A stretch of 64,000 bases of DNA, from positions 455,001-519,000 of the forward strand of contig JACVTC010000093.1 in the NCBI GenBank assembly GCA_016946835.1, read 5' to 3'. The position numbers were made by a program, and so were the translations under genes. The notes under the pieces are model-generated. The model was not told the DNA's origin, made no database searches, and saw nothing but the letters and a program-made list of their open reading frames with translations. Source of the stretch: Neocallimastix lanati (nom. inval.). Its lineage: Eukaryota > Neocallimastigomycota > Neocallimastigomycetes > Neocallimastigales > Neocallimastigaceae. Shown piece by piece: positions 6,021 to 48,758 of the stretch (the stretch's first letter is position 1; each line of letters starts with the position of its first letter).

Positions 6021-6043
6021 TAGAGTACTGAGACTCTTAATCT
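6021..6043 (-). other. Primer-binding site matching a tRNA-Lys(CUU) half
   Basis: On the plus strand this stretch contains TGAGACTCTTAATCT, which reads like the anticodon arm of a eukaryotic tRNA-Lys(CUU) (stem TGAGA, loop CTCTTAA, then TCT). The preceding TAGAGTAC resembles the end of the D arm. The element's RNA is therefore complementary to roughly tRNA positions 20-41, implying an internally cleaved primer as in Drosophila copia. Five bases separate it from the LTR. The tRNA comparison is from memory of conserved tRNA sequences. Confidence 0.75.
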
Positions 6044-15607: not shown

Positions 15608-15769
15608 TGTAAGAAGTGAATTAAGTTTAATGTATTAAAATGTAATGTATAAGTCATAATGTACTTGAATAAATTGAATGTAACATGTAAAATTAACTAT
15701 TTTGCAACTCTTTATAATAAATAAATAAATAAAGTTGACTTAATATGATCTAAATCTTATTTTCTAACA
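15608..15769 (+). repeat. Decayed 5' LTR of copy A
   Basis: Starts TGTAAGAAGTG, ends CTAACA, and aligns with the copy B LTR at GTATAAGTCATAATGTA and AACTCTTTAT. Followed by AGATTAATAGTCTTAG, a mutated version of the tRNA-Lys-type primer site. Confidence 0.65.
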
Positions 15770-17257
15770 GATTAATAGTCTTAGTGGAATCTCAATGGAC
15801 TCCTAAGAGGATTTTCTGAAAGATGAATCCTAAGCTCGGACATAAATTATATCAAGAAAAAAGTTGTTGGTATTGAAGAATGCCAAATACTCGAACAATA
15901 ACCGTGTGAAAATCTAACCTTTAGAAAATATGAAAATCGAGATATTGAAATCTCGAAATTTTGAAATTTAAGATATTTGTAATCTCCAACCAAAATTTAG
16001 GAACCGCTAAAGGAAATACTAAAAGCAATATTTAGTTTTCAAGAAATAAGTTAAGATTACCCAAAGCAAAGGATGAAGTACATTAGGATATCTTGAAGGT
16101 TCAAACTATGTTTTATTCGCCAGATGAAATACCATGTTACCTCCAATGTATGAAGGATAATTTTGAATATGCAGAAGATTTTTCTGGAAAAAATAATTAA
16201 TGATGTTGGTGTGGATAATACTAATAAACTTTTAAGTAAAATGAAAAACAATACTAATCCGCAATTTACATTTAAATCAGGCCAATCTACACAATGCTTT
16301 AAAGATGGAATTATTAAAAAGAGATGGTCCATATATACGCTCAAAGTTGGTCTTTGTATGATTCAATGAACTAATTCGAGAACACACGAGCTAATAGATG
16401 ATATTGAAGCCTGTAACTGTGATTCTGATAAGAAAGAACAAAAGTATTTTACTTTAAATGGACTAACATATTATTGAATCACAATAAACAATAATATAGA
16501 CAACACACCAACACCAGATATAAAAATAAACTTATAACTCTCATAGTTGAATGTCTTGACCTTATCGTATGAATTATGGGGAACCAATCACTGTTTCTAG
16601 TGGGTATCATAAACAGGAAGTAAGCAAAGCAGTAAAATTCAACAAATAATAATAGTCAACACACGAAAAGTGAAGTCGCGGACCTTCAACCATGTGGTGG
16701 TACTGAACATTTAAAATTTGGAGAAAAATTTTTAAAATTATACAATGCTATAATTAAATTTAAAAAATATTATCAATTTATTATTAAAAATTGTTTATGG
16801 GCACACATCAATTTACAAAAATCCAGAAAATAATCATCACGAAATTCGTTACTACGATGGTAAAAATCACGGAAATACCAAAATATCCAATTATTACTGA
16901 TGAGGTTTAAGAAAACATTAATATATGTAAAGATAAAATAGGATTAACTAATAAAGTCAGTATTTCTAATAATTCAGACCTTAATGAAGATGATGTTTGT
17001 ATTTACGATTTGCGATCCTATCGACACAGAAATAAATGATAAACCCGACCGCGATGACAATAAAGAAGTTCCTAATAATAACCTCAACTCAAGTGATGTT
17101 AACAAAATAAAATATACTTCTCTCCTAAATACTTTCAGTATATTTATAGTATTCATGATTTGGCAATTACATATTATATTTTAGAATTTTCAATATTTTG
17201 TCAATTTTTCATAAAAATTACTCCTTATGCCACTTTAAATAATATCCATTTAAATTA

Positions 17258-17293
<36 letters not shown>

Positions 17294-18125
17294 TTATTAC
17301 ATTTACACAATATTACAATAATATTCATGAAGAGAAAAACACTTAAAGCATATATTAGTGAACTATTCTCAAACATCTTTAATTAAAAAAAAAAATTTGA
17401 TATTTTATTAATTAAACTTTTGACTATTAGTAACGTAATACACTTATACATAAAGGAATCAAATATGTGATAAACTATTTCTACCTTAGAATATATGAAA
17501 TAAAATTTAATAATATATCACTTAATAAGACTTAAGCAATCATTAAAAATGGTTTTTTGTTAAACTACAAAACTTATTATTTAAAATATAGTCATTTTAA
17601 CGAGCATTAAAATACATATTAATCGTATATATATATAATATGCAACAATAATGGAGGAGACTATATGACAGAGATCCCATACAAAATAATTTAAAATATA
17701 ATATCCCAAATGTCCAAGGGAAATATAATAGAATGGTACTTCCTAGCGTGAAATGGATGCATTCTAACAATAATAGTATTATTTAACCTAGCGTGAAAAG
17801 GGTTTAGATAATTACTATTTCAATATAATCATAATGAAAACCTTTCGTGATGAAAGGTATAATAAAATAATAAATATAACCATGAGTTATATGCAAAGAG
17901 ATGACGTTTAATCCATCTGAAAACTATACTTATTGATTATATAGTATTTTAAAGTTATAATATTAAACTATTATCATTAATATTTCAATAATATGAAAAT
18001 TCAAATATATTAAATCCTTTTAAAATTTTGGATTTTAGGGGGAAGTAGGCAAAATAAAATAAAGAACTTAAAATATAAAATATTAAAGAAATGTTACTTA
18101 ACTGATTCTTTGCACTGATTATTTA
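15608..18125 (+). mobile_element. Non-coding LTR element, copy A (5' part, 3' end lost)
   Basis: Begins with a decayed LTR (15608-15769) and a degenerate primer site. It shares with copy B (45417-47552) an LTR, a leader hairpin and a long 3' internal region: 17390-18120 matches about 45955-46625, including TAATGGAGGAG, the hairpins near 17785-17921 and the purine tract TTTTAGGGGGAA at 18037-18049. Copy B's further module and its 3' LTR are missing here. The part from 15830 to 17390 has no counterpart in B and holds only short ORFs of no recognised family. Probably a decayed non-autonomous retroelement. Confidence 0.75.
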
Positions 18126-18749
18126 AAAAACTTTAATTATTTATTAATTAAAAAAATTTTTTTTCTTAAAATATTTAAATATTTAAATATTACTGTATAT
18201 TAAAACATTTTTTTTTTTAACTAGATTATTTATAAATATCGCTTTTATTAAAATTATTTAATATTTATTAAATATTAAAATATTTTTTTAAATTTTAAGT
18301 TTTTAAAAAATACTGAGCAAGAATTTAAAAGGTGTAAAAATGATCAATTAATTAGTTAAATATTATATAATAGATTTAAAAGAGGTAAAGAATAGTTATT
18401 TTAAATTATTATTATTTACCTTTTTTAAATTATTAATATTTATTTATATATATATATTATTGAAAAGTTATAAAACATTTAAAACGTGTGAAAAGATATT
18501 TTATTAATTAAAGCTTTAATTCTAATGCATATTTATTATTATTTATTTATATAATATTTATAAACATTTATTTTTTTTTAAAAAAATTTAATTTTAAATT
18601 TATTTATTTATTATATTTTTATTTATATATTTTTATTTATTTAGTTATTTATTTAAATTACATATATTATTTATTTGTTTTATTATTAATTTATATATTT
18701 TTATTTATTTAGTTATTTATTTAAATTATATTAATAAAATTAAAAATAT

Positions 18750-45336: not shown

Positions 45337-45416
<80 letters not shown>
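45337..45416. repeat. (AAT)n microsatellite, target of element B
   Basis: About 26 AAT units end at the element; AAT units resume right after its 3' LTR (47555 onward), so the element inserted within the array. Confidence 0.9.
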
Positions 45417-45611
45417 TGTTAGAATATGTGAAATGTATGAAAAATAAGCTTCAAATGTATTGAAACATATTGTAATATAATTTATGTATAAGCCACAATG
45501 TATTAATATAAAAGCATTTAATTTAGAATAATTAATGCTAGTAACTCTTTATCATAAAATATATTAATAAAATTAACATAATTATAAACCATAAATTCAT
45601 GACTCTTAATA
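45417..45611 (+). repeat. 5' LTR of element B
   Basis: Starts TGTTAGAATATG. It ends GACTCTTAATA where the 3' copy has GACTCTTAACA (one transition in the terminal CA). Confidence 0.9.
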
Positions 45612-45625
45612 GATTAAGAGTCTCA
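45611..45625 (+). other. Primer-binding site of element B, complementary to tRNA-Lys(CUU) and to its own LTR end
   Basis: AGATTAAGAGTCTCA is the reverse complement of the tRNA-Lys(CUU) anticodon-arm sequence TGAGACTCTTAATCT. The LTR end immediately before it contains GACTCTTAAT, so 45601-45622 is a perfect 10-bp inverted repeat with a 2-nt centre. Confidence 0.75.
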
Positions 45626-45636
45626 TCTGACTCTTA

Positions 45637-45663
45637 AAAAGATTCATAGCAAAAGAATCTTTT
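45637..45663 (+). other. Leader hairpin of element B
   Basis: AAAAGATTC, 9-nt loop, GAATCTTTT: a perfect 9-bp stem just after the primer site. Copy A has AGGATT/AATCCT at 15808-15831 in the same place, where an A-T pair is replaced by G-C on both sides. Confidence 0.8.
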
Positions 45664-46271
45664 GCCGGAAACAATATTATGTCGAAAAAAAAAAAAAAAA
45701 ATAATTGAATTTTAAATTATGATAAAGGTTGCTCATTATGTCAATTTTTAAGATGAATAATAAAAATTGATAACTGATCAAAATGATCAAGACAGAAAAA
45801 TTGAAGAAACGCGTAAAATATAAAACTGTTGATAAAAGAAATTATTTCAGGATAAGTAAAACTCAAAAAAATATAAAAATATTTATTTAAAAATAAAAAA
45901 CACGTATAAACGTATATAAAAGAAAAATATATATCTTCATACTAGAGACTCTTAATTGAAATTATAATTTGATATTTTAACAAATAAGCTTTTGGCTATT
46001 GGTAATATAATATCTATACATGAAGGAATCTACTATGTGATGGACTATTTCCGCTCCATGAATATACAAAACATATTATTTAAAGTATAGTTATTTTAAC
46101 GCGTATTTATAAATATTAAACTCGTATATATAAATGTAAACTACAATAATGGAGGAGTCTATATGTCAGAGACCACATATAAAATAATTAATATATAATA
46201 TCCCAAATATTCAAGGGAAATATAATAGAATGGTAATTCCTAGGGTACATTCTAATAATAATATTATTATT

Positions 46272-47112
46272 AAACCTAGCGTGAAATAGGTTTAAATAAA
46301 AAAAAAATTATTTAATATAATCATAATACAAACCTTCGTGATGAAAGGTATAATAGAATAATAAATATAACCATGAGTTATATAAAAATGGATGATGTTT
46401 ATCCATCTATAAACTATACTTATTTATTACAGAGTATTTAAAATTATTAAAATTTTATAATTAATATTTTAATGATGAGAAAATTCAAATATATAAAATC
46501 CTTTTTAGAAATTTGGATTTTAGGGGGAAAGTAGGCAAAATAAAATACAAATTATAAAAATATAAAAGAAAATAAAAATATTAAAGAAAAGTCACTTAAC
46601 TGATTCTTTGAGCTAATTATTTGAAAATAATATTTATCTTGAAATGAATAAAATAGCCTAATAGCGAAAATTAACAAAAATTAACATTTAAGAAAGAATT
46701 AACTGAAATAGTGAATATTAATCAATTATGAAACAATTTAAATTTTTACTAATAAGTTTAAATGATTAGAATAATATAATTAATTATAAATACAATCAAT
46801 TTTAATACCCCAAGATTATGATTTATCAAATACACCAATATATAATTAACAATTTATTTTAATAGTTATCGCTAAAACTACAAAGCGAAAATATATAAAA
46901 GTTAACTCTAATCTATAAAGCGGATTTATAATTGAAAGTGATGTAAAACCCAATATATAAGAGGTATTCACACAAATTGAGATGGTATAATATCACCCTT
47001 CATGAGAAAGGTTTCCATCATATAAATGGTAATATATAAACCATATACTATAAGAGATGTTTTAGATACATCTAATATTAATGGTGTAATAATATTAAAT
47101 ATTTAGTTTTAG
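46272..47112 (+). other. Conserved hairpin modules and internal purine tracts of element B
   Basis: Module 1: AAACCTA/TAGGTTT (46272-46293), ACCTTC/GAAAGGT with one bulge (46332-46349), ATAAC/GTTAT (46367-46381), TGGAT/ATCCA (46389-46405), then TTTTAGGGGGAAAG (about 46517). Module 2, a diverged repeat: CCTT/AAGG near 46997, CCAT/ATGG near 47013, AGATG/CATCT near 47053, then TTTTAGGGGGAAA (about 47108). Copy A has the module 1 hairpins at 17785-17921. Confidence 0.75.
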
Positions 47113-47356
47113 GGGGAAATTATTAGATTATAAATATACTTAAGAAATTATTTTAGCAATATTTAAATTAAATTAAATAATTAATATAACATAAAAAATA
47201 TTTTATTCATATAAAATTAGAGGTTAATTTAGGATAGAAATATATATAACAGTTTAATAATATCAAGTTAATAGTGTAAAATAGGATAATTTTATATACA
47301 CGTATTCACCAGTGAACCAATTTATTCATTATTGAATAACTAGGTTTAAGGGGGAA

Positions 47357-47552
47357 TGTTAGAATATGTGAAATGTATGAAAAATAAGCTTCAAATGTAT
47401 TGAAACATAATGTAATATAATTTATGTATAAGCCACAATGTATTAATATAAAAGCATATAATTTAGAATAATTAAGTGCTAGTAACTCTTTATCATAAAA
47501 TATATTAATAAAGTTGACATAATTATAAACCATAAATTCATGACTCTTAACA
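47357..47552 (+). repeat. 3' LTR of element B
   Basis: TGTTAGAATATG to GACTCTTAACA; preceded by the purine tract at 47345-47356. Confidence 0.92.
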
Positions 47553-48384: not shown

Positions 48385-48758
48385 GAGGATTCGAAAAAGG
48401 TTTTAAATATTCTAAAATATCTTAATTTAGGAAAAAATTATAAAATTACATATAAAGGACAGGGGGAATTAATAGCTTATGTGACTCCGACTTAGCAGGT
48501 GACCTAATAGACAGAAAGTTTACTTCTGAATATGTAGAATTAATATGTTATTACAGATAATTTAACAAGTAAAACTAATATTGAAAATGGAGAACTTAAC
48601 AATAAATTAAAGCATATATATAAAAAATATCATTTTAATAGAGATAATAAAAAAATAAATAAGTTACTCGACTATTTTAAAGCTGAAAACACGTTCACAG
48701 ACACACTAACAAAAAGATTATAATGACCGAAAATGACAGCTTTTACAGTGAGTGGGAA
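48385..48758 (+). pseudogene. Copia RNase H and C-terminal fragment
   Basis: Broken frames read KNYKITYKGQGELIAY, then DNLTSKTNIENGELNNKLKH and later ENTFTDTLTKRL. These match the intact copia RNase H region (DYKIVYDGQGEIIAY, DNLASKITIENGEINTKLKH, KEMLADALTKDV). A large piece with the AEAEY active-site region is deleted in the middle. It ends in a purine tract, GTGAGTGGGAA. Confidence 0.85.

Follow-up and report, generated by a model that had tools for sequence, protein, structure and literature searches.

How does an LTR element family that encodes no protein stay mobile within a very AT-rich, fungal-type genome? The question is raised by element B, which lies in the window, by which we mean the whole stretch of 64,000 nt analysed here, taken from an assembly of 199 Mb in 762 contigs. 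The LTRs of B are 97.4% identical to each other, and its longest ATG-initiated open reading frame has 75 codons on the minus strand and 35 on the plus strand, which bears out its description as a non-coding LTR element in an earlier note on this DNA. Dozens of copies of the family are found in the assembly; with the 5′ 584 nt of B as the query, we obtained at least 41 matches at 91–100% identity (40 of 1623 candidates scored). We fetched 39 B-type loci besides B itself, and examined the LTR pairs of 38 of them together with B (n = 39). Two full LTRs are present in 26 of these 39 copies, with a median identity of 0.99 and with 1.00 in 6 of the 26. An exact 5-bp target duplication flanks 23 of the 26 two-LTR copies; many of these lie in sequence made up of A and T alone, which makes a match by chance easier. 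In B itself the duplication carries one mismatch and the 5′ LTR ends in TA, while most other copies are exact.

With paired TG..CA LTRs, a primer site, a polypurine tract (PPT) and a target duplication, the B family has the composition of an LTR retrotransposon, and B combines the lack of gag-pol with recent transposition. The family is a young, non-autonomous, coding-free LTR retrotransposon that has transposed recently and must, given its lack of coding capacity, have drawn on proteins supplied in trans. We take it to belong to the non-autonomous, coding-free kinds of LTR element that go by the names LARD and TRIM, with which it shares the LTRs, the primer site, the PPT, the absence of gag-pol and the presence of recent copies; its 2.1 kb presumably place it above typical TRIMs and below typical LARDs. 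Two other assignments were ruled out, namely that of an autonomous Ty1/copia element (Pseudoviridae), as B holds no RVT_2/rve polyprotein ORF, and that of a retrozyme, as no hammerhead match was obtained in Rfam. The start of the B-type LTR gave 0 matches in a collection of viral contigs.

As for the surroundings of the insertion, TAA-type simple repeats occupy positions 45340–45416 and also lie around several relatives, possibly as a result of target choice. On the plus strand at 48461–48530, some 0.9 kb beyond the 3′ end of B, a short and decayed frame reads LCDSDLAGDLIDRKFTSEYV; we take this to resemble the RNase H motif of copia elements, so that the neighbour of B is probably the relic of an old copia element.

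Table 1. Features of element B, of the diverged copy A and of the copia element in the window (positions are those of the window).
Feature	Position	Strand	Remarks
Element B	45417–47552	+	LTR element, 2.1 kb
5′ LTR of B	45417–45611	+	195 nt, TGTT...AATA
GACTCTTAA at U5 end	45601–45609	+	Same letters as tRNA-Lys(CUU) anticodon arm
Primer binding site of B, GATTAAGAGTCTCA	45612–45625	+	Complementary to tRNA-Lys(CUU) nt 27–40
Primer-site hairpin, TTAAGAGTC - TCATCT - GACTCTTAA	45614–45637	+	Perfect 9-bp stem
Second leader hairpin, AAAAGATTC / GAATCTTTT	45637–45663	+	Leader hairpin of the earlier note
Module 1 of B	46066–46545	+	Non-coding block common to diverged families
Hairpin, loop GCGTGAAA	46272–46293	+	No covariation
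Hairpin, loop GTGAT	46332–46349	+	No covariation
Hairpin, loop CATGA	46366–46382	+	No covariation
Hairpin, ATGGATGA / TTATCCAT	46388–46406	+	
Internal PPT-like tract 1, TTTTAGGGGGAA	46518–46529	+	Exact in 23/26 two-LTR copies
Internal PPT-like tract 2, TTTTAGGGGGAA	47107–47118	+	Exact in 20/26 two-LTR copies
Predicted hairpin enclosing 3′ PPT	47303–47358	+	Almost invariant in 33 copies
3′ polypurine tract, TTTAAGGGGGAA	47345–47356	+	Adjoins 3′ LTR; exact in 23/26 two-LTR copies
3′ LTR of B	47357–47552	+	196 nt, TGTT...AACA
Copy A 5′ LTR, diverged	15608–15769	+	Ends by eye
Copy A decayed primer site (GATTAATAGTC...)	15770–15783	+	
Copy A module 1	17566–18129	+	81% identical to B
Ty1/copia polyprotein, 1961 aa	83–5968	−	RVT_2, rve, Retrotran_gag_2; candidate type of helper
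Primer site of window copia, GATTAAGAGTCTCA	6029–6042	−	Identical to B's

The first clue to the source of these proteins is the primer site. The sequence GATTAAGAGTCTCAT directly abuts the 5′ LTR of B on its inner side, and the primer binding site within the leader is complementary at each of its 14 nt to the anticodon arm of tRNA-Lys(CUU) as encoded in this genome. Of the 39 fetched B loci, 37 contain an 11-nt core of the site, and genome-wide the 15-mer of the site occurs 668 times, as compared to 0 for its reversed control. Because the complementarity is to the interior of the tRNA and not to its CCA end, it argues for half-tRNA priming, and we infer that the primer of B is a half-tRNA derived from tRNA-Lys(CUU). 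The pattern of the corresponding tRNA arm occurs 73 times, clustered on about 20 contigs (C188, C251, C266, C353 and others), and the one occurrence examined (L105) is a tRNA-Lys(CTT) gene by ARAGORN. The 73 occurrences largely alternate in orientation, at steps of roughly 4.6–7.5 kb, like arrays of inverted units.

Priming from the inside of a tRNA has precedents among copia elements. The primer of Drosophila copia is the initiator tRNA-Met, whereas the site in B matches tRNA-Lys(CUU). Half-tRNA priming is described for Drosophila copia, whose primer site is, as in B, complementary to an internal part of the tRNA (PMC5371799), and the genus Hemivirus, in which this element is placed, is described as set apart by the use of just a short tRNA segment (PMC8515867); B has a primer site of this kind. 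Closer still are the FunCo1 elements, fungal copia elements described from Pezizomycotina, plus two copies in Lipomyces starkeyi, for which a site printed as ATTAAGAGTCT is called a tRNA-Lys PBS (PMC5445492). This site is complementary to an internal part of tRNA-Lys and is the same as that of B; the comparison covered the primer site, and B, in contrast to these copia elements, has no genes.

A copia element with an intact ORF is found in the window itself, with the same primer site and the same type of PPT as B. The LTRs of the two elements are related distantly at most, to judge from an alignment score of 106 against a mean of 79.6 and a maximum of 99 in 300 shuffles, and among the genome loci examined, none was identified as a copia element carrying the LTR of B. 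At one locus, a PPT and an LTR 87% identical to that of copy A, a diverged relative of B in the window, lie 1.9 kb downstream of an RVT_2 match, and PPT-LTR junctions of B's LTR type number 487 genome-wide at up to 2 mismatches, against 1 in the control. From the primer site, the PPT and the LTR type we infer a helper of the copia type, and B is likely to be mobilised in trans by such an element. The reading that we favour, with good confidence, is that B is a young coding-free LTR retrotransposon copied in trans by the Ty1/copia elements of the same genome.

The copying cycle would then run as follows: 1) the Gag of the helper would package the RNA of B; 2) the 5′ half of tRNA-Lys(CUU), presumably released by cleavage of the tRNA and annealed beside the 5′ LTR, would prime the minus strand, at a site that may stay hidden in a hairpin with a copy of the tRNA arm until the primer displaces that arm; and 3) the plus strand would start at TTTAAGGGGGAA adjoining the 3′ LTR, with the two internal copies of the tract as possible further starts. 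The interior around module 1 would be inherited non-coding sequence, whose hairpins would require no structural selection.

Where this interior may come from is suggested by the relatives of B. Module 1 is shared by diverged families at 71–88% identity, with a mean pairwise identity of 85% over 32 copies (measured on 46130–46540), while the LTRs of A and B are 71–75% identical. With the module of copy A as the query, relatives are found at 77–83% over long matches, and with a distant module copy as the query, further matches at 68–88%; six more distant modules (L098–L103) were covered by cmsearch only. When the window was searched with a covariance model built on module 1, the copies at 46262 and 17774 were the only matches at E up to 1. 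The second, diverged module that the earlier note had read in B around 47107 was thus not recovered by this model, and the local alignment of the two putative modules has a score of 36, where 300 shuffles average 35.6 (SD 5.0), so that this claim is not supported. Downstream of the module of copy A, no match to a 3′ LTR was found in the window.

The relatives that share module 1 have about 1 kb or more of extra sequence between leader and module. Module 1 might be the old 3′ non-coding part of larger, A-type parents, and B a deletion derivative of these, an account to which we give slightly less than an even chance. In four relatives (L071–L074) the extra sequence matches the interior of A upstream of the module at 76–90%, and the tree of the module copies has 89–91% terminal branches, as would be expected of independently decaying copies. 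The short frames and fragments of these A-type relatives gave no Pfam match below E 0.01, which speaks for this account; the coding nature of the extra stretch is unsupported, with an 83-aa fragment having 3 matches in the genome, itself included. The extra stretch of L071–L074, with its short open frames ahead of the module region, is possibly a decayed gene of the parent elements. In another locus (L104:1–240), the sequence upstream of an A-like 3′ LTR holds imperfect repeats containing GTAAAACC and CCATGAGTTGTC.

The earlier note had also pointed to repeated purine tracts of the type that primes the plus strand, and this observation stands: the window contains 4 such tracts at up to one mismatch, against 0.42 expected, a count that was reached by 0 of 100 shuffles. 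The internal TTTTAGGGGGAA tracts share the form of the 3′ PPT, and copy A also carries one, at 18033. That the internal tracts serve as extra plus-strand primers (central PPTs) is possible, but on the sequence evidence we regard it as rather unlikely. In its favour, next to this excess, are the exactness of both tracts in most two-LTR copies (Table 1), the mention of a central PPT for Ty1 (PMC5371799) and the low number of changes (2) at the five G of tract 1 on internal branches. On terminal branches, however, these five G show no deficit, with 26 changes (5.2 per site, compared to 4.1 at unpaired G), and of 63 module copies, 41 have tract 1 in its exact form (AGGGGGAA) and 22 have lost it. 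The 3′ PPT itself lies within a predicted hairpin, and the folded segment around it has the lowest z of any in B (−3.56). Over the folded stretch, 96.1% of cells are paired, against 95.9% with shuffled partners (4.7% of 300 shuffles reach 96.1%), with 1 double-change cell in 33 copies; as its stems are nearly invariant in these copies, this hairpin is hardly testable by covariation.

The central proposal of the earlier note was that the interior of B is a structured RNA under selection for packaging or dimerisation. The hairpins on which it was based, with loops GCGTGAAA, GTGAT and CATGA, are indeed seen in B and A alike; the selection is unsupported, as module 1 shows no covariation. We assembled 86 rows of module copies, from which 23 were dropped as second fetches, segmental duplicates or partial or interrupted modules, leaving a set of 63; a greedy subset at 95% gave 32 copies, and a further alignment (A1), which omits L072, comprises 31. 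There is no compensatory excess on 31, 32 or 63 copies, an outcome that the earlier note had itself named as speaking against its proposal. In the 31 copies, 90.6% of cells are paired, as compared to 90.7% with shuffled partners; in the 32 copies, 0 of 94 pairs fall under E 0.05 in a G-test with APC against a tree-based null, and 0 double changes lie on internal branches. The 94 pairs are those proposed by RNAalifold with RIBOSUM scoring, and with default settings it proposes 0. The trees have 91% (32 copies) and 89% (63 copies) of their branches terminal, which indicates that the copies decay independently.

Some counts do lean towards pairing. On internal branches, pair-breaking changes number 14 against 31.6 under the null (32 copies), 14 against 28.6 (SD 4.3) when only the hairpins read in B are counted, and 37–52 against 54–60 for the minimum-energy structures of five single copies; in the latter, restored pairs amount to 18–25 against 8–12 under the null, which is partly expected, since each structure was taken from a copy in which the pairs exist. 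Stems undergo 0.36 changes per site on internal branches and positions outside them 0.54, and 92.1% of cells are paired against 86.6% under the tree-based null, for a structure derived from the same alignment. Stems change less, however, at A, C and T as such, and pair-keeping changes are not raised (18 against 20.4 in the 32 copies, 14 against 18.1 for the hairpins from B alone). Their share on internal branches is 0.50 at the true register, and 8 of 12 slid registers give a higher one.

The asymmetry of changes within G-C pairs was examined as well, since C>T there leaves a G-U pair and G>A leaves none. On terminal branches the C>T:G>A ratio is 43:27 in G-C pairs against 116:139 at unpaired positions (Fisher P 0.022), and over all branches P is 0.049. 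On internal branches, where selection in mobile lineages should show, it is 6:7 against 37:38 (P 1.0), without an excess of C>T. In the fourth hairpin of the module (ATGGATGA / TTATCCAT), 11 of the 32 copies have A-C in place of the G-C pair 46390/46404. B itself folds well, with four 120-nt windows across 46197–46496 at z −2.0 to −2.8 on the plus strand (minus strand, −0.4 to −1.9). The mean fold z of the hairpin stretch over the 32 non-redundant copies is, however, −0.77 on the plus and −0.63 on the minus strand. Rfam gave one match in B, at E 4 and far below the gathering score, and none at E up to 1 in the loci of eight relatives; a known RNA family or ribozyme in B was rejected on this result.

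We rejected the module-1 hairpins as evidence of selection on the fold z, the RNAalifold output, the pair counts, the covariation test, the slid registers and the strand asymmetry; a weak constraint on module-1 pairing may still exist. That module 1 is a functional structured RNA, maintained as a packaging or dimerisation signal in mobile lineages, strikes us as doubtful: the deficit of broken pairs, the terminal-branch asymmetry, the folding of B and the sharing of the module by families with diverged LTRs speak for it, and the missing compensatory excess, the slid registers, the balanced internal branches, the near-equal folding of the two strands and the lack of an Rfam family against it. 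The results give clear reason to doubt hairpins counted by eye in very AT-rich sequence.

In the leader, the earlier note had described a compensated pair in what we list as the second leader hairpin. It is there when each copy is read in its own register, with AAGATT/AATCTT in B and AGGATT/AATCCT in A, but in an alignment of 19 leaders only two cells have changes on both sides, one belonging to A and the other to L071, a result equalled in 39 of 500 shuffles. This count is rough, as the 3′ arm of A is shifted by one column and the stem of L071 is otherwise poor.

The strongest candidate for an RNA feature of B is another hairpin, which the earlier note had not named and which contains the primer site. 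Its 5′ arm lies in the primer site and its 3′ arm copies the anticodon arm of tRNA-Lys(CUU); a further copy, at the U5 end, recurs with minor changes in most of the B copies that were fetched. Genome-wide, GACTCT follows the exact primer site at a distance of 0–6 nt in 207 of 668 cases, against 0 in the reversed control, and among the 100 listed of these 207 the spacer between site and arm is that of B in 41 and another in 59, so that arm spacers differ between elements of the same genome. We further scored the downstream pairing in 15 leaders (16 rows less one chance place within the window). Seven of these belong to a set of nine places, drawn in the order of listing among the first ten non-B exact sites and not chosen for a hairpin; the tenth listed place was already contained in L046, and L109 and L113 gave no separate row. 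The pairing run is reached by shuffles at P <0.03 in 6 of the 15 leaders, among them 3 of the 7 taken irrespective of hairpins, and not in the other 9, which include the copia element of the window (P 0.46). A copy of the tRNA arm beside the primer site is therefore frequent, not universal. Across 21 distinct B leaders, the arm varies no less than the sequence around it, so that common descent explains part of this frequency.

A small literature search brought up no comparable primer-site hairpin, and the hairpin pattern gave 0 matches in a collection of prokaryotic genome contigs. The nearest likeness is the Conserved Hairpin Site of the fungal GalEa elements, which also lies right after the 5′ LTR, in elements with TGT..CA LTRs of about 200 bp and a 5-bp target duplication; it is described as having a palindromic 5′ arm and no primer site, in contrast to B, where the 5′ arm is the tRNA-Lys primer site (PMC5445492). 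An assignment of B to the GalEa site as described, with its palindromic CHSeq1, a conserved A/A mismatch and no primer site, was ruled out, since a primer site is present in B and its 9-bp stem is perfect. In HIV-1, a tRNA-like element of the PBS segment is described in which the leader mimics the anticodon arm of tRNA-Lys near the primer site; there, the mimic binds LysRS and the primer is the 3′ end of the tRNA, whereas the arm in B would pair with the primer site (PMC11181671).

That reverse transcription of B is self-primed, as in Tf1 or through the downstream hairpin arm, with the tRNA match secondary, is very improbable: although the 3′ arm GACTCTTAA could conceivably prime once nicked and GalEa elements are described with a hairpin replacing the primer site (PMC5445492), the match to tRNA-Lys(CUU) extends over 14 nt and the arm pairing over only 9, the exact site occurs without a good arm in several elements (L108, L110, L111), and the identical site of FunCo1 is termed a tRNA-Lys PBS (PMC5445492).

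Under the favoured reading, with a half-tRNA as the primer, the hairpin could act as a switch, in which the copy of the tRNA-Lys(CUU) arm hides the primer site and the half-tRNA displaces this arm copy or is recruited with its help, as in HIV-1, as a possible intermediate toward the primer-less hairpin site of GalEa; we put this forward as speculation, with the odds well against it. If functional, the primer-site hairpin would join two priming arrangements of fungal copia elements, the tRNA-Lys site and the hairpin site, and would make the origin of the hairpin site testable.
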